Of a DNA stretch of 64,000 nucleotides, positions 38,933 through 46,416 are shown in pieces; the stretch's first letter is position 1; every line of letters begins with the position of its first letter. This DNA comes from Aliidiomarina iranensis (GTDB lineage: Bacteria > Pseudomonadota > Gammaproteobacteria > Enterobacterales > Alteromonadaceae), in assembly GCF_003987135.1 (NCBI RefSeq), contig NZ_PIPJ01000002.1:1-64000 (forward strand), written 5' to 3'. Made by a program: the position numbers and the translations under genes. The notes below the pieces were generated by a model. It saw nothing but the letters and a program-made list of their open reading frames with translations, did no database searches and was not told the origin of the DNA.

Positions 38933-41572
38933 ATGCAAGAAAAAGTGCAACTCAGTATCTTACTCTCCGCCGTGATCGGTTTAGTAGTCGCTACCGCGTG
39001 GTTGTTTGTGCGTAATCGTAAGCAAAACATGCTGCTCGAAAATGAACAGGCTTTACTCGCGTTGGTAGCGCAAGACGCCTCACTAGTAAAAAAACTTAAT
39101 ACTGTGTGTAAGCTAATAGAGCAACAAATCGCAAGTTCACTGTGCACTGTGATGATTCGTGATTTTAAGGCCAATGTGTTGCGCGTAGTTGAAAATGAGA
39201 AGCTACCGATATCAATCATTGAACCCTTACGTGAATTAAACATCCGTGATGGTGTTGGTGCATGTGGTACGGCGGCCGCAACTGGAGAATCGGTTATTGT
39301 TGCCGACATGATGGTGGATGCGCGCTTCACTGATTTTATTGAGGTAATCGAAAAACATAACCTCCGGGCCTGCTGGAGTTTTCCGTTCTTTAATATTGAT
39401 CAGGAAGTGGTCGGTACCTTCGCACTATACTTCGATAAGCGAAAGAACCCGAGTAATAGAGATTTGCGGTTAATTGAACAAACTCGAGATCTTGTGGGGC
39501 TTATTTATGCCCAGCACCTAGAAAAAAACAGAAGAATGGAGAGTGAAGAGCACTATCGTTCTTTACATACATACAACCCTGAAACCGTGTTTACGCTTGA
39601 TGAAAATGGTAAATTTTTACAAATGAATGAGGCAGGGCTACGCCTTCTCGGCCTGAGTGAAACTGCGATCATCGGCCAACATTATTCCAAGGTAGTAAGA
39701 GCACAAGATCTTGAACGTACGCATGAGCATTTTGTTGCTGCTTTAAACGGCGAAGCACAACGCTACGAAATACAGATATTTAATCAAGCTGGTGAAACGC
39801 TTGATGTGGATATCACGAATATGCCCATTGTTGTGAGTGGTAAAATTACGGGTATTCATGGTATTGCCACGAATATTACGCAACGGTTGCGTGATCAAGG
39901 CCAACTTCAGATTTTGCAGCGCAGTGTGGAGGCCAGTGTAAACGGAATTGTAATCGCCGATGGGAGAAAGCCCGGCTACCCACTGGTGTATGTAAATCCT
40001 GCATTTCAGAAAATTACCGGCTACACAGCTTCTGAAATACTTGGAAAAACCTGCAAGGTTTTGCAAGGAGAGGGAAGTGATAAACGAGCGCTTGAGCAGA
40101 TTAGAAATGGTTTAAAGAAAGAGCGTGATGTGCAAACTACTATTCGTAACTATCGTAAAGATGGTACCGCGTTTTGGAATGATTTATATCTGGCCCCCGT
40201 GCGTGATCAAAAGGGCGAGTTAACGCACTACATCGGTATTCAGAATGATGTTACCGCACGCAAAGAACAGGAAGAACAAGTGGCGTGGCACGCCACTCAC
40301 GATCCGCTTACGCGGTTACCGAATCGTTCGCTGCTCGAAGATAGATTAGAACAAGCTTTTCGGTTTAGCCGGCGTTACCAACGCAATCTTGCAGTGATGT
40401 TTATCGATCTCGATGGTTTCAAACCTGTAAACGATTCAATGGGCCATAGTGTGGGCGATGCACTCTTGTGTGCGGTGGCAGAACGGATACAAAACACCAT
40501 CCGAGATGGTGATACGCTTGCGCGGTTTGGCGGTGACGAATTTGTGGTGGTTTTACCAAATGCGGGCACGGAATCGGATATCAATGAAATTGCTGAGCGA
40601 TTTTTATTTGAAATTGCTGAACCTTATAAGGTTGGAAACAAGGAACTTACGCTCACTGCGAGCATCGGTTTAGCTTTAAGTGATGAGGATTTGGATGATC
40701 CAAGGTTGCTTATTCAACGAGCCGACATGGCAATGTATAAAGCTAAACGCCGCGGTAATAATAACTTCGAATGGTTTACGCAAGATATTAACGATAAGGT
40801 TGAACGCCATGTTCTGATGCGCCATGAGATTCAAGAAGCGCTGAAATGTAAGCAGTTTTCATTAGTGTATCAACCCATCTTCGATCAAAACCAAAAGATT
40901 TGTAGTGTGGAAGCCCTGATTCGTTGGAATCATCCAGTGCAAGGGGTTATCTCTCCTTACGAATTTATCACCTTAGCTGAACACACTGGGCAGATAATTC
41001 CCATGGGGCGATGGGTTATTGAGCAAGTATGCCAAGACATGCTCCAGCTACAGGCTATGGATATCCCTACGGTGTCGGTTAATTTATCGCCCTTGCAGCT
41101 GAGTAGAAATCGCTTTGCTGATGATATCAAAGGATTGTTAGCAGAATACCAAATAGAAGCTCGGCAAATAGTTTTAGAGGTTACAGAAAATGTGCTTGTG
41201 AGCGATCTAACAAATGCTTCGAGCATTCTCAATGAGCTCCACAAACAAGGTTTTCGTATCGCCATTGATGATTTCGGTACCGGCTATTCAAGTTTAAGGT
41301 ATCTGCAAGAGCTGCCAATTGATATCTTGAAAATTGACCGCAGTTTCGTTTGTGATGTTGGCGAAGGTAAAAAATACGAAGGCATCACCCGTGCTATGCT
41401 AGCTGTTGCCCAAGAGCTGCAGCTGCAGGTAGTGGCGGAAGGGGTAGAAACCGAAGAGCAACTTACGTTTTTAAAAACACAGGATTGTGAATTCTACCAA
41501 GGATATTTACTGGCGTTGCCAATGGCTATCGATGACTTAGCTAGGTTTTGTGAGCAAAAAATGCAAGCCTAA
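38933..41572 (+). CDS. Membrane GAF-PAS-LOV-like-GGDEF-EAL bifunctional c-di-GMP enzyme
   Basis: An 879-residue protein: one N-terminal membrane helix (about 7-26), GAF (about 40-195), PAS (about 205-315), a LOV-like PAS (about 325-445), GGDEF (about 450-615) and EAL (about 620-878). The LOV-like domain has GKTCKVLQG with C374 at the flavin-adduct cysteine position, N406 in RNYRKDG, N416 in FWN and Q437 in GIQNDVT, all hallmark LOV positions; only the asparagine before the cysteine is T373. GGDEF (533-537) and its I-site RDGD (524-527) are intact, as are EAL (660-662) and DDFGTGYSS. It may be a blue-light-controlled enzyme. Confidence 0.9.
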   Translation: MQEKVQLSILLSAVIGLVVATAWLFVRNRKQNMLLENEQALLALVAQDASLVKKLNTVCKLIEQQIASSLCTVMIRDFKANVLRVVENEKLPISIIEPLRELNIRDGVGACGTAAATGESVIVADMMVDARFTDFIEVIEKHNLRACWSFPFFNIDQEVVGTFALYFDKRKNPSNRDLRLIEQTRDLVGLIYAQHLEKNRRMESEEHYRSLHTYNPETVFTLDENGKFLQMNEAGLRLLGLSETAIIGQHYSKVVRAQDLERTHEHFVAALNGEAQRYEIQIFNQAGETLDVDITNMPIVVSGKITGIHGIATNITQRLRDQGQLQILQRSVEASVNGIVIADGRKPGYPLVYVNPAFQKITGYTASEILGKTCKVLQGEGSDKRALEQIRNGLKKERDVQTTIRNYRKDGTAFWNDLYLAPVRDQKGELTHYIGIQNDVTARKEQEEQVAWHATHDPLTRLPNRSLLEDRLEQAFRFSRRYQRNLAVMFIDLDGFKPVNDSMGHSVGDALLCAVAERIQNTIRDGDTLARFGGDEFVVVLPNAGTESDINEIAERFLFEIAEPYKVGNKELTLTASIGLALSDEDLDDPRLLIQRADMAMYKAKRRGNNNFEWFTQDINDKVERHVLMRHEIQEALKCKQFSLVYQPIFDQNQKICSVEALIRWNHPVQGVISPYEFITLAEHTGQIIPMGRWVIEQVCQDMLQLQAMDIPTVSVNLSPLQLSRNRFADDIKGLLAEYQIEARQIVLEVTENVLVSDLTNASSILNELHKQGFRIAIDDFGTGYSSLRYLQELPIDILKIDRSFVCDVGEGKKYEGITRAMLAVAQELQLQVVAEGVETEEQLTFLKTQDCEFYQGYLLALPMAIDDLARFCEQKMQA

Positions 41573-41669
41573 CCAGTTAATGATTAGCTCTAGCCAACCG
41601 CATTAATTTCTCGCTATTCGCGCATGATTAGCTATGATGAAGAGCTAGCTATCGAATACTGGAGCATAA

Positions 41670-42482
41670 ATGAGCCAACGAACTGACATCATAAAAAGAA
41701 ACAATATCAGCGTGTTAGGTAGCGGTAGTGAAGTACTTTTGTTTGCCCATGGTTTTGGGTGTGATCAGCGGATTTGGGAACCGGCAATAGCTGCATTGCA
41801 AGGCGAGTATACCATTGTACTCTTTGATTATGTGGGGGCCGGCAAATCTGATAAATCTCATTTCATTGAGAGCCGCTACGCAAATATCCATGGTTATGCG
41901 CAGGATATTATAGAAGTCGTTGAAGCCCTACATCTAGAGGAATTCTCATACGTAGGGCACTCGATTAGTGGTGCTATTGGTTATTTAGTATCACTGGCCT
42001 TGCCAGAAAAAGTAAAAAAAGTTATCGCATTCAGCCCTTCTGCTTGCTACTTAAATGATCCTACAAATGATTACTATGGTGGCTTTGAAGAAGCGGATAT
42101 TCAGCAATTGTTTGCGATGATGGAGCACAATTTTTATGAGTGGGCTGGTTTTCTGGCACCGAAAGCGATGAATCAAGATGATCGCCCGGAGCTGGCAGCG
42201 GATTTAGCCGCTAGTTTCAGGGCCACTGATCCAACTATATTAAAAAGCTTTGCTCGAGCAACCTTCCTGTGTGATATTCGAGAACGTTTGCCAGAGGTTA
42301 AAGTGCCTGTGGTGCTTTTCTATGGCACCGCTGATATGGTGGTTCCGGAGAGTGCTATCGAATTCCAAATCGAGCACTTAGAACATTGCAAAGCGATACA
42401 AATACCGGTTACCGGCCACTACCCGCATGTAAGTGAACCCAAACTGGTGGCTATGGAAATTGAAAAGGAATTAAATCGATAG
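41670..42482 (+). CDS. RsbQ-like alpha/beta-hydrolase
   Basis: A 270-residue hydrolase closely resembling Bacillus subtilis RsbQ, the partner required by the PAS phosphatase RsbP in energy-stress signalling. Shared blocks include AHGFGCDQRIWE, VLFDYVGAGKSD, GHSISGAIG, SACYLNDP and YYGGFEE. The triad maps to S98, D222 and H250 (RsbQ S96, D219, H247). RsbQ is related to the plant KAI2/D14 receptors and has a closed hydrophobic pocket. The next gene begins 21 bases on and encodes a PAS protein, so it likely plays the RsbP-like role. Confidence 0.9.
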   Translation: MSQRTDIIKRNNISVLGSGSEVLLFAHGFGCDQRIWEPAIAALQGEYTIVLFDYVGAGKSDKSHFIESRYANIHGYAQDIIEVVEALHLEEFSYVGHSISGAIGYLVSLALPEKVKKVIAFSPSACYLNDPTNDYYGGFEEADIQQLFAMMEHNFYEWAGFLAPKAMNQDDRPELAADLAASFRATDPTILKSFARATFLCDIRERLPEVKVPVVLFYGTADMVVPESAIEFQIEHLEHCKAIQIPVTGHYPHVSEPKLVAMEIEKELNR

Positions 42483-42503
42483 AATCGATATAGGATAAAC
42501 GTT

Positions 42504-43463
42504 ATGAGCCAAAACGATGCGATCGTTGGTGACATTAATCAGTTACCTGCTGGCGTGCTATATATGGCGCCATCTGGGCTCATTTTGGATGTAAATTCCG
42601 AGCTAAATCGCTGGATTGCTCCCACTGGCATTCTGAAAGGCCAGCATATTTCCGATATTCTCTCTGGGGCTGCGCGCATTTTCTATCTTACTCACATACA
42701 GCCCGCGTTAGCCAATAAAGGCCACATTGAAGAAATGTTTCTGCATTTAAAATCAAAAGAGAATCAATTGATATCGGTGGTGTTGAATGCGGTGCGAACC
42801 GATTATTGCGATGTATTTGTGATGTTACCCATGGCGAAACGGCAGCAATTTGAACAGGAATTAATGGAAGCAAGAAAAGTGGCTGAAGCCGCGACGGCCA
42901 AATCGAAAGAAGCCTATGCGGAGCTTGCGCAACTACAGCAATTATTAACGGAAAAAAATCAAGAATTAGAAGCGCTGGCAAGTACAGATTCGCTCACTGG
43001 ATTGCATAACCGGCGATATTTCCAGAACACTTTAGAGCGCGAGTTAGAAAATTTTAATACCAACGATGAACCGGTTTCGTTAGTGCTTATTGATATTGAT
43101 CACTTCAAATCAATCAATGATAGCCATGGTCACGATATGGGTGATCAAACGCTGATTTCTATTAGTGAAAACTTATCTGAAAACATGCGGCATTGTGAGT
43201 ATCTTGCTCGGATTGGTGGAGAAGAATTTGCTGTTGTGTTGCCACAGCAATCGGGTAAGCAGGCACTTAAATTCGCTGAACGCCTCAGAAAAGTGATTGC
43301 TGCGGGTCATTATCCAACCGGGAAGTTAACCATTAGCTTAGGTGTGGCAGAAGCAAGAAAAAACGAAAGTATTCAAGGCTTATATATGCGTGCTGATGCA
43401 GCTCTTTATAGTGCCAAGGGCGCAGGTCGAAACCGAGCAGTGTTAGATGAGAGTACGCAATGA
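42504..43463 (+). CDS. PAS-coiled coil-GGDEF diguanylate cyclase
   Basis: A 319-residue soluble protein: PAS (about 10-110), a coiled coil (about 112-158, QFEQELMEARKVAEAA onwards) and GGDEF (about 160-315). GGEEF at 238-242 is intact, so c-di-GMP synthesis is expected; the inhibitory site reads RHCE (229-232) in place of RxxD, so product inhibition may be altered. The PAS-coiled-coil layout is like that of RsbP, with the PP2C output replaced by a cyclase. It sits between the RsbQ-like gene and the EAL gene, overlapping the latter by four bases (ATGA). Confidence 0.9.
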   Translation: MSQNDAIVGDINQLPAGVLYMAPSGLILDVNSELNRWIAPTGILKGQHISDILSGAARIFYLTHIQPALANKGHIEEMFLHLKSKENQLISVVLNAVRTDYCDVFVMLPMAKRQQFEQELMEARKVAEAATAKSKEAYAELAQLQQLLTEKNQELEALASTDSLTGLHNRRYFQNTLERELENFNTNDEPVSLVLIDIDHFKSINDSHGHDMGDQTLISISENLSENMRHCEYLARIGGEEFAVVLPQQSGKQALKFAERLRKVIAAGHYPTGKLTISLGVAEARKNESIQGLYMRADAALYSAKGAGRNRAVLDESTQ

Positions 43464-45283
43464 TAAGCGATTCAGATAAGAACGCGGTTTTTCGGGCGCT
43501 CGCCGATGTATTCACATTCAGCGAAGACACAGATTTTTTTGATATACTAAGCCAACGTCTAGCCGAAATCCTTTCTGTTCAACATGTTGTTATCTCGCGT
43601 GTTGATGGCGAAACTCAGATGGCGTATGCCCATTCATTTTTTTCGAATGGCCAGCATATTGCGGGCGTTGAGTATTCACTTTCTGGTACTCCATGTGAAC
43701 AGGTTTCTTCACAAACCGCCTGCCATTACGTAACCAACGCAGCTCATGATTTTCCTGATGATCAAATGTTAGTTGATTTGCAGGTTGATAGCTACATGGG
43801 CTATCCGTTGCTAGATCGCCAAGGCGATAAGTATGGCTTAATCGCAATCATGGCGGATAAACCGTTTTTAGATGCAGATCTATGCTTGGAGGTATTACGA
43901 ATTTCCGGCGCTCAAGTGGCTGCTGAGTTGCATCGGCGCAGTAACGAGAGCCGAATGCATGAACTGGCGTTTACCGACCCCGTTACAGGTATCGCAAATC
44001 GTACTGCGTTTATGCATCGCATCGATCGTGAGAAAAAACACGCCGATGAAAAAGGTGAAGGCTTATGTTTATTAGTGGTGAATATTCGCCGGTTTAAAGA
44101 AATAAACGATGCTCACAGTCATTACGTGGGTGATTTACTTTTGGCTGCTGTTGCCGAGCGATTATCAAACACATTGAGCGAGCAAGATTTTATTGCTCGT
44201 TTCAGTAGTGATGAATTTGGTATTTTAATGCCGTGCACGGCTGAAAATGAACTACCCGAAGCCATTGAGCGAGTGAAATTAGCATTTTCAGAACCCCTAG
44301 ATACCGGTGAGCGATTATTTGGTGTTGAGGTTCGAATTGGTGCCGCGCATTATCCTTCCACCACCCCGGAAGTTAGCACATTATTGCAGCGGGCCAGTAT
44401 TGCCCTAAATCACGCTCGGCATATTGCTTCCCATAGCCGAATTTATGATTCGTCCATGAGCCAACAGTTGCTCGATGAACAACAAATGTTGGAGCGTTTG
44501 AAACTAGCCATTAACGAAGAAAAGCTAAGTTTGTATTATCAACCACAATTTGATGTTCGTACCGGTAAACTATGCGGTGCGGAGGCGCTTTGTCGTTGGC
44601 ATGACGAAGAATTAGGAAATGTTCCTCCCATGCAATTTATTCAACTGGCGGAAGAGCGCGGCTTGATTTATTCGTTGGGGAATTGGGTGGTGCGTGAAGC
44701 AATTACACAGTTGCAAGATTGGCTCACACACTATGATGGCTTTGCAGGCACATTGAGTGTGAATATTTCAGCATTGCAATTTGAAGACCCATACATGGCT
44801 AATTATTTGATTGAGAAAACCTCTGATTTGCCAAAAGGCGTGTTTGCTCTTGAATTAACCGAAAGTATTATGATGCAGAATCCGCAACATGGGATGAAGC
44901 AGCTACAACGCTTGCAGGATAGCGGGATTGGTATCGCTGTTGATGATTTTGGTACGGGCTATTCCTCGTTGTCTTATCTTACGCAGTTTCCAATTTCGGT
45001 ATTGAAAATTGACCGTACTTTTATTCAAAAAATGTATCCTGGGAATCATCAACATGCGATTGTTACTACCATCATTGCTATGGCGGAGGCGCTAGGTTTA
45101 GATACTGTAGCTGAGGGTGTGGAAACACCTGAGCAAGAGGCTACGCTTAAGGCTCTTGGCTGTTTTTGTATGCAGGGTTTTTTACGTGGGAAACCTGTTC
45201 CTGCTAACGAGTTCGCAGAGCGTTGGTTGCAGCCAAAGTTAAGTGATAATGAATCACGGATAAATAATAAATTTCTGGAGTAA
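43460..45283 (+). CDS. GAF-degenerate GGDEF-EAL c-di-GMP phosphodiesterase
   Basis: A 607-residue soluble protein with GAF (about 10-160), GGDEF-like (about 165-330) and EAL (about 340-595) domains. The cyclase signature is degenerate, SSDEF at 249-253, whereas EAL is intact (E375-A376-L377, NISALQF, ELTESI, DDFGTGYSS, KIDRTF, AEGVETPEQ). It should act as a phosphodiesterase. Its ATG overlaps the stop of the PAS-GGDEF cyclase, so synthesis and breakdown are translationally coupled. Confidence 0.9.
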   Translation: MISDSDKNAVFRALADVFTFSEDTDFFDILSQRLAEILSVQHVVISRVDGETQMAYAHSFFSNGQHIAGVEYSLSGTPCEQVSSQTACHYVTNAAHDFPDDQMLVDLQVDSYMGYPLLDRQGDKYGLIAIMADKPFLDADLCLEVLRISGAQVAAELHRRSNESRMHELAFTDPVTGIANRTAFMHRIDREKKHADEKGEGLCLLVVNIRRFKEINDAHSHYVGDLLLAAVAERLSNTLSEQDFIARFSSDEFGILMPCTAENELPEAIERVKLAFSEPLDTGERLFGVEVRIGAAHYPSTTPEVSTLLQRASIALNHARHIASHSRIYDSSMSQQLLDEQQMLERLKLAINEEKLSLYYQPQFDVRTGKLCGAEALCRWHDEELGNVPPMQFIQLAEERGLIYSLGNWVVREAITQLQDWLTHYDGFAGTLSVNISALQFEDPYMANYLIEKTSDLPKGVFALELTESIMMQNPQHGMKQLQRLQDSGIGIAVDDFGTGYSSLSYLTQFPISVLKIDRTFIQKMYPGNHQHAIVTTIIAMAEALGLDTVAEGVETPEQEATLKALGCFCMQGFLRGKPVPANEFAERWLQPKLSDNESRINNKFLE

Positions 45284-45287
45284 ATGA

Positions 45288-45398
45288 ATGTCGTTGTTGC
45301 CGGTTTTAATGCTCGTATTTATTCCTGTGGCTTTCATTGCCATTATCGCGGGATATTTAATTTGGTTCTTCCGTAATGAAGAGAAAAAGAAACGTTAG
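45288..45398 (+). CDS. Tiny single-helix membrane protein
   Basis: A 36-residue protein starting MSLLPVLMLVFIPVAFIAI, with one hydrophobic helix (about residues 3-25) and the charged end FFRNEEKKKR, giving a C-in topology by the positive-inside rule. GGAG lies seven bases before the ATG, and the stop (TAG) is one base from the next gene's likely ATG, suggesting coupling. It starts four bases after the EAL gene ends. I do not recognise a family. A 31-codon frame from the ATG at 45284 is less likely. Confidence 0.6.
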   Translation: MSLLPVLMLVFIPVAFIAIIAGYLIWFFRNEEKKKR

Positions 45399-45399
45399 C

Positions 45400-46416
45400 A
45401 TGAGTGAATCGGCGAACAACGCTCCTTGTGATGAGAATCCTTCCTCCTGTTTGAGCTGTGGTAATGCGTTAAAAGGCCCTTTTTGCCATCATTGTGGCCA
45501 AGAAGATACTCACTACGTGCGCGGAATAGGTAGTTTAATTACCGAATTTTTCGGTGAAATGGGTAATTGGGATGGCCGCGTATGGCGTACGCTTATTCCA
45601 CTTTTTTTACGCCCAGCATTCCTTTCGAATGAGTATGTGCGCGGCCGAAGGGTTCCCTATGTTCCGCCACTACGCTTGTATCTATTTATTTCCATCGTTG
45701 CTTTTATTTTCTTTTCGCAACTGGGTAGTGGCCTAGCTATCAATGGCAACGCTGGAACGCCGCAAGAGATAGCTGAGGCAACTAATGCCGATACTAATAT
45801 TTTGCCTGAGCTCGCAGCAAAACAAGAGGATCAGAGGGAAATTAGCGGCTATTCAGAAGAGCAAGATCTCACTTCATTCAAACAATCTTCGGAAGAATAC
45901 ACAAATAATGAAGCTGTATTCCTTTGGCTTTTAAGTGATGAGCAAAACGCTGAACTCAATGAAAAGCTAAAAGTATTGGTAGAGCGGCCAAAAATACTTG
46001 TAGATAAGTTTTTTACGGTGGCTCCGCAAATGATGTTGATCATGCTACCCATCTTCGCTTTCTTTTTGAAAGTTTTGTATCTCGGCAGCAAGCGTTATTA
46101 TATCGAGCATGTGGTGCTAGCCTTACACACGCACGCGTTCATGCTTATCACATTATTGATTATTCTCGGTGTGAACCTGATTCATTCATTGTTAATAGAA
46201 AATAATGTGAGCGGTTGGTTAACCTCGCCATTTTCGTTTCTCTTAAAAGGGCTGTGGTTTTGGTTGCCTGTGTACTTGTTTATGGCGCAAAAACGCTTCT
46301 ATCGGCAATCGTTTTTCGTAACTTTTATCAAGTTTAATTTAACTGCGCTCTTTTACCTGTTCCTTTTAACTGTAGCCATAGCATTTGGGGTAATTTGGAG
46401 TATCTGGAGCGCATAG
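45400..46416 (+). CDS. DUF3667 zinc-ribbon membrane protein
   Basis: A 338-residue protein with an N-terminal zinc ribbon (CLSCGN and CHHCGQ, residues about 17-34), the DUF3667 hallmark WDGRVWRTLIPLFLRPA..LSNEYVRGRRVPYV, a first membrane helix, a soluble acidic loop and four more helices in the C-terminal half. I take the ATG at 45400; an in-frame ATG eight codons earlier overlaps the tiny membrane gene and has no ribosome binding site. Inner membrane, function unknown. Confidence 0.8.
   Translation: MSESANNAPCDENPSSCLSCGNALKGPFCHHCGQEDTHYVRGIGSLITEFFGEMGNWDGRVWRTLIPLFLRPAFLSNEYVRGRRVPYVPPLRLYLFISIVAFIFFSQLGSGLAINGNAGTPQEIAEATNADTNILPELAAKQEDQREISGYSEEQDLTSFKQSSEEYTNNEAVFLWLLSDEQNAELNEKLKVLVERPKILVDKFFTVAPQMMLIMLPIFAFFLKVLYLGSKRYYIEHVVLALHTHAFMLITLLIILGVNLIHSLLIENNVSGWLTSPFSFLLKGLWFWLPVYLFMAQKRFYRQSFFVTFIKFNLTALFYLFLLTVAIAFGVIWSIWSA

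Follow-up and report, generated by a model that had tools for sequence, protein, structure and literature searches.

The stretch of DNA analyzed here, called the window throughout, comprises 64,000 nucleotides of Aliidiomarina iranensis (contig NZ_PIPJ01000002.1, positions 1 to 64,000 of the forward strand), and the system in question is a series of three genes on its + strand between positions 41670 and 45283, which encode an alpha/beta hydrolase of the RsbQ type, a diguanylate cyclase with an N-terminal PAS domain, and a GAF-GGDEF-EAL protein presumed to be a phosphodiesterase of cyclic di-GMP (c-di-GMP). The first two genes correspond to the RsbQ-PAS sensing module described by Nadezhdin, Brody and Price (2011; PMC3183031). 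An initial annotation of the locus had proposed that an RsbQ-type sensing head is joined here to c-di-GMP output, with the pair's own breakdown enzyme in the operon; the first of these ideas, which is the central one, is supported by the analysis and was already published, whereas the description of the phosphodiesterase as the pair's own is not supported. The coordinates, catalytic triad, 21-base gap and ATGA overlap given in that annotation were all recovered from the sequence and its open reading frames (ORFs).

The hydrolase and the PAS-GGEEF cyclase

The hydrolase gene (41670..42482, + strand), identified from the ORF list, by phmmer and from an AlphaFold2 model, encodes a protein of 270 residues whose best PDB match by sequence is RsbQ (1wom; E 3.4e-68, residues 4-258, phmmer). 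In fold comparison its model (mean pLDDT 95.2) superimposes on the same structure with a Z score of 43.1 and an rmsd of 1.1 over 269 aligned residues. RsbQ is thus the best PDB match by fold as well as by sequence, and the protein is closely homologous to it. The triad read from the sequence, S98 (codon 41961-41963), D222 (42333-42335) and H250 (42417-42419), all on the + strand, lines up with the triad of RsbQ when the two sequences are aligned; among relatives the three residues are conserved in 120/120, 120/120 and 119/120 loci, respectively. These counts, like the PAS residue frequencies given below, were taken from 130 loci, of which 10 without a downstream PAS match longer than 80 residues were dropped (n = 120). 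Separately, 74 plasmid records (Streptomyces, Rhizobium, Phaeobacter and others) match the hydrolase at E<=1e-20, all with less than 60% identity.

A gap of 21 bases (42483-42503) separates the hydrolase gene from the cyclase gene (42504..43463, + strand; 319 residues), which was assigned from its ORF, Pfam, the family profile and the model. Pfam finds a GGDEF domain (42978..43436, + strand; E 2.3e-45) with the motif GGEEF at 43215-43229, a motif present in 58/60 surveyed cyclases (one of the others has GGDEF and one was not parsed); the PPM phosphatase family is absent from the Pfam matches of this protein, and no PAS domain was detected in it by Pfam. The I-site (43188-43199, + strand) reads RHCE in place of RxxD; among 59 parsed cyclases an RxxE site is found only in the window and in G004, another genome of the genus, and RxxD in 47. 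A PAS profile of the family matches 42534-42875 at E 1.0e-34, and this match, residue mapping and the model place an RsbP-type PAS domain at approximately residues 10-109 (42531..42830, + strand). The Pfam family PF13426 is matched at E<=0.01 by 22/29 members of the PAS alignment, the window's domain lying outside those 22. No relative of the cyclase was found on viral contigs by the patterns used.

The AlphaFold2 model of the cyclase (mean pLDDT 92.0, pTM 0.66) shows a PAS-like order of strands and helices, a single helix and a GGDEF fold; fold comparison of this model gives good coverage of the GGDEF domain and linker but is a poor test of the PAS part. When solved structures were compared with the PAS family, the matches were weak and generic to PAS domains (best E 0.0012), and no chain named RsbP was present among the best 60 of 66. 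The linker before the output is one continuous helix in the monomer model (residues 110-159; 42831..42980, + strand), presumed to form a dimeric coiled coil; the class is characterized by a potential coiled coil of at least 21 residues at this place. The PAS-helix-GGEEF architecture suggested initially, and the GAF-SSDEF-EAL architecture suggested for the third protein, are in agreement with Pfam, the PAS family profile and the AlphaFold2 model.

To number the PAS domain, an RsbP-like protein of Mesobacillus persicus (L098) was used as a ruler, since it holds C10, L13, L48, F55, Y59, E72 and P86 at the positions given in PMC3183031. On this numbering the window has L13, L48, R53, F55, Y56, H59, P62 and E72, with A10 and S86; residues F60, H64 and E77 of the cyclase correspond to RsbP F55, Y59 and E72. 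Alanine changes at RsbP L48, F55, Y59 and E72 abolished signalling in B. subtilis, and in two-hybrid and pull-down experiments contact with RsbQ required F55, a residue of the F-alpha helix of the PAS domain (PMC3183031). In the window these four positions hold L, F, H and E, each of which is common in the class; at position 59 H is in fact the commonest residue (55/120), followed by Y (51/120). The domain has no DIT motif and ends in DVFVMLPMAKRQQFEQEL; the RsbP-type PAS class is described as one without DIT (PMC3183031).

Co-occurrence of hydrolase and PAS domain and the exchange of outputs

Co-occurrence was evaluated in a sample of 196 genomes of the window's family, searched separately with a hydrolase profile (E<=1e-40) and the PAS profile (E<=1e-10). 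The hydrolase is found at 43 places in 40 genomes and the PAS domain at 42 places in 39 genomes. Each of these 39 also has the hydrolase; in the one further genome with the hydrolase (G432) the PAS domain falls under the cut-off, yet was found beside the hydrolase with another profile. The distance between the two is 30-94 bases in 41/42 PAS places and 1379 bases in the remaining one, where a transporter gene lies between. With shared ancestry ignored the Fisher value is 1.9e-40; counted by genus, each of the two profiles gives 17/52. In a class-wide sample the hydrolase occurs in 3/369 genomes, the window's own included. The initial annotation had proposed a search for the same neighbours in other genomes, and the pair does co-occur elsewhere, so that lack of co-occurrence is no argument against its interpretation.

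Similar results were obtained with 80 named loci, which are the best 80 of at least 585 and not a random sample. A PAS gene lies directly downstream of the hydrolase in 74 of them, with a kinase as output in 31, GGDEF in 26, PPM phosphatase in 13, GGDEF-EAL in 1, and no assignment in 3. The notion that gene order is kept at all loci was rejected, the other six having no PAS gene directly downstream. Four of the six have an adjacent PAS gene in a different arrangement: a PAS-GGDEF-EAL gene is found directly upstream of the hydrolase in L081 (a Marinobacter metagenome-assembled genome) and L096 (Vreelandella populi), a second hydrolase stands behind a complete pair in L089 (Planomicrobium okeanokoites), where two RsbQ-type hydrolases flank one PAS-GGDEF gene, and PAS-PPM is on the opposite strand in L101. 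Locus L053 stops at a contig edge, and in L099 no PAS was found in 12.8 kb. A PAS match was likewise not found in two loci outside the 43 family places, L040 (G005, of the window's genus) and L191 (G117, a 6-kb contig). In the 43 family and 80 named loci together, outputs were left unassigned by script in 5 of 123 (L055, L056, L066, L039 and L180); the output domain is in a following frame in L055, L056, L066 and L180, and for L039, which contains two PAS domains, no output was found.

As a control, 19 other alpha/beta hydrolases of related genomes, the next-best hydrolase matches with loci given, were analyzed, and none (0/19) has an RsbP-type PAS domain within its 1.5-kb flanks; one of these loci (L029) contains a kinase match on the opposite strand. 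These results bear on the alternative that the hydrolase is a metabolic esterase sharing an operon with the cyclase by chance, with no functional link between them. The absence of PAS domains near the controls, the reciprocal co-occurrence in the family sample, the spread of partners over many phyla and three output types, and the single reading frame described below all argue against such a coincidence, which is considered very improbable.

In a quick tree of the hydrolases (120 rows, of which 119 carry a label, the kinase labels of L033, L034, L041, L056 and L180 being set by hand), the type of output changes 9 times, and at least 5 changes are forced for GGDEF by the well-supported branches alone. 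The head is thus stable, whereas outputs are swapped. In genome G018 (one contig) hydrolase, PAS and GGEEF follow one another in a single reading frame of 582 residues (L038:8078-9826, - strand), and a second copy in the same genome (L037) is an ordinary unfused pair. The junction of the single frame contains no stop and no in-frame ATG; in-frame GTG and TTG codons precede the PAS domain. A fused hydrolase-PAS protein was scored in 0/74 of the named loci with PAS directly downstream, and no mention of a natural fusion was found in the accessible text of PMC3183031 or in the literature searches. Judged from its sequence, the frame in G018 would lend indirect support to contact between hydrolase and PAS domain. 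Together with the near-exclusive co-occurrence it upholds the proposal that the sensing head is joined to c-di-GMP output, which was published in 2011 and restated in a 2025 eLife paper (PMC12143880), in which the RsbQ/RsbP complex is modelled with AlphaFold2 and the module is again described as coupled to kinases and cyclases.

Several kinase loci also contain c-di-GMP genes. In G009 (L033), of the window's genus, the genes after the hydrolase encode an MFS/Atg22-like transporter, a PAS-histidine kinase, a REC-HD_5 protein and a PAS-GGDEF-EAL-REC protein; gene order and sizes are the same in G010 (L034), and the short contig of G011 (L041) has a transporter-sized gene, a PAS-kinase, REC-HD_5 and a cut-off GGDEF gene, both genomes being of the same genus (among the transporter loci Pfam was run on L033 only). 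The hydrolase of G005 (L040) is accompanied by a transporter-like gene and REC-HD_5, with no PAS kinase detected. What is presumably the usual HD dyad reads YN in the HD_5 proteins of G005, G009 and G011, which makes it doubtful that they are active. Loci L183 (G432) and L185 (G588) have, on one strand, the hydrolase and after it a PAS-kinase, another kinase-like protein and a GGDEF-EAL-REC protein. A further same-strand GGDEF/EAL match at up to 6 kb downstream is limited to 8/43 family loci, and REC-HD_5 or GGDEF-EAL-REC neighbours were not seen in the other kinase loci of the family. These loci provide a lead, namely that the RsbQ-PAS module sometimes meets c-di-GMP by a second, kinase route. 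The broader idea that in the window's family the head is a small-molecule receptor repeatedly converging on c-di-GMP, through GGDEF, through the kinase variant (G009, G010, G011; G432, G588) and, in one genome, as a single chain, is offered tentatively.

The phosphodiesterase gene and the surroundings of the pair

The third gene (43460..45283, + strand; ORF and Pfam) encodes 607 residues and overlaps the cyclase gene by ATGA (43460..43463, + strand), in which the cyclase stop and the phosphodiesterase start are combined. Pfam finds GAF, a degenerate GGDEF that reads SSDEF, and a full EAL domain (E 1.3e-66); EAL, DDFGTG and other motifs that are taken to be catalytic were spotted by eye. The overlap would fit a dedicated on/off cassette, in which sensor, cyclase and the cassette's own phosphodiesterase were selected together, as would the gene order common to the window and G004. 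The RxxE I-site confined to these two cyclases would fit it as well, as it might make a phosphodiesterase more necessary.

The distribution of the gene argues otherwise. Phosphodiesterase matches at E<1e-100 are present in 12/17 genomes of the genus and an RsbQ-type hydrolase in 7/17, and 9 of the 12 have no such hydrolase at all; among the seven hydrolase-bearing genomes the PAS-GGDEF partner is found only in the window, G004 and G006. Genomes G015 and G016 have the phosphodiesterase in the same neighbourhood, which includes genes for a metallo-hydrolase and a DUF3667 protein; it follows a relative of the gene found upstream in the window, and a PLD-like gene stands at the site where the window has the hydrolase-cyclase pair. 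In G002 it is likewise near the DUF3667 gene, and on the other side are a P-type ATPase and approximately 1.7 kb in which no gene was matched. Among the genomes surveyed, the three-gene order of the window recurs only in G004 (L031), where a gap of 210 bases replaces the ATGA overlap. Among the 123 loci, some of which stop at contig edges, a stand-alone GGDEF-EAL gene immediately following the cyclase was seen only in the window and G004; in L042 such a gene is found two genes on, behind an aldo/keto reductase. Since RxxE in the window and G004 represents one lineage, the I-site change carries no weight for a link with the phosphodiesterase, and with 32 GGDEF and 17 EAL matches in the 2.65 Mb of the window's genome, an EAL neighbour is not rare. 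A dedicated cassette is therefore improbable, and the phosphodiesterase was rejected as dedicated partner of the pair. The presence of the same neighbourhood without the pair in sister species suggests that the phosphodiesterase probably occupied the site earlier than the pair did. The enzyme probably acts to lower the level of the same messenger, with no dedicated part in the sensor.

Upstream of the pair lies a gene for a GAF-PAS-PAS-GGDEF-EAL protein of 879 residues (38933..41572, + strand; ORF and Pfam), an order common to G004, and downstream of the phosphodiesterase a gene for a DUF3667 protein of 346 residues (45376..46416, + strand), which is also found near the phosphodiesterase in several sister species. 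On both strands of 41300-45500 there are 3 promoter-like sites compared with 8.8 expected from shuffles, and 5 terminator-like sites compared with 3.7 expected (sd 1.8); on these counts nothing points to a promoter or terminator inside the gene series.

Mechanism and comparison with known systems

The first two genes are held, with reasonable though not strong confidence, to form a two-protein cytoplasmic RsbQ-PAS sensor with cyclase output, in which the phosphodiesterase has no dedicated part; that the hydrolase controls the cyclase directly is, taken by itself, likely. The best supported model is the published one of contact, in which the hydrolase would dock on F-alpha, a helix of the PAS domain at the N terminus of the cyclase. 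This contact would require the active site to be intact, and a small molecule bound or turned over in the Ser-His-Asp pocket would change it. Through the 50-residue helix, which presumably forms a dimeric coiled coil, the change would be passed on and alter the meeting of two GGEEF domains, such that c-di-GMP synthesis would follow the ligand.

The rivals considered here are not all incompatible with this explanation. One of them is product delivery (Model 1 of Nadezhdin et al.), according to which a product of the hydrolase is handed to the PAS pocket, so that the PAS domain is the true sensor and contact only loads it. Conservation of the triad in 119-120/120 partners speaks for this model. 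However, KAI2 and D14, the butenolide receptors of plants, have intact triads too, and triad conservation thus fits both product delivery and contact. The requirement for the catalytic residues of RsbQ in B. subtilis (PMC3183031) also favours delivery of a product, but as of 2011 the search for a ligand of RsbP-PAS had yielded none, and the RsbQ-PAS signal was then unknown, according to the accessible text of the same paper. The signal is named in no title or abstract opening listed in the literature searches. Product delivery is regarded as possible but rather doubtful.

Several observations weigh against the contact model or against the weight given to its evidence. At position 10 the window's PAS domain has A, where 81/120 relatives have C, and at position 86, which is important in B. 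subtilis RsbP, it has S, where 105/120 have P; the corresponding changes in RsbP were mild for C10A and partial for P86A (PMC3183031), and both are consensus residues rather than absolute criteria of the class. The co-occurrence counts are uncorrected for shared ancestry, and the PAS profile was built from hydrolase-adjacent domains and so defines the class that it counts. Mirror-tree analysis (58/60 GGDEF loci, near-duplicates dropped) does not favour hydrolase-PAS (r 0.61) over hydrolase-GGDEF (r 0.63). Column coupling over 120 pairs shows no enrichment of F-alpha, which contributes 5 of the top 50 pairs with 16/124 columns; hydrolase-PAS coupling is above that of shuffles, the top pairs falling on few PAS columns (position 116 most) and resembling clade markers. 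Both analyses are considered uninformative. Finally, the long frame is found in G018 only, among the 43 family places and 8 places in 13 genomes of G018's genus, and internal initiation at its GTG or TTG may yield separate proteins.

A pair with c-di-GMP as its output can be followed by simple reporters. The single chain of G018, if it is truly made as one protein, would permit a ligand screen without prior proof of complex formation, as a self-contained ligand-gated cyclase with which to look for the signal. The hydrolase is kin to the plant receptors of karrikins and strigolactones, and a bacterial ligand would bear on the origin of that receptor family. KAI2 and D14 share the hydrolase fold of the window protein (Z about 37-40), and RsbQ is closer to it by sequence (E 3.4e-68, compared with 2.3e-55 for the best KAI2-like chain); the partner of the plant receptors is an F-box protein, in contrast to the bacterial PAS-cyclase of the window. 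Olei00960 of Oleispira antarctica (3qvm) is the second-best PDB match by sequence and by fold comes next after two RsbQ entries; it is described only as a hydrolase in the PDB listing.

With B. subtilis RsbQ-RsbP the locus shares hydrolase family, PAS class and gene order, and it differs in output, which is a cyclase in the window and a PPM phosphatase in RsbP. In the published survey the genes of 45 RsbQ homologues lie immediately upstream of genes for RsbP-type PAS proteins, whose outputs are PPM phosphatases, histidine kinases and diguanylate cyclases, the cyclases being found in Gram-positive and Gram-negative bacteria (PMC3183031). The RsbQ-PAS-diguanylate cyclase pairs of this kind (e.g., Psychromonas ingrahamii A1SVT3) are the closest counterpart, since they have, like the window, an RsbQ homologue directly upstream, an N-terminal RsbP-type PAS domain without DIT, a helical linker and GGDEF. 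The window departs from them in S for P at position 86 and A for C at position 10, and it adds a separate GAF-SSDEF-EAL gene, whereas the EAL domains mentioned in the accessible text of PMC3183031 are fused at the C terminus of three cyclases. The locus thus confirms a known class of sensor and is not a new kind of system.

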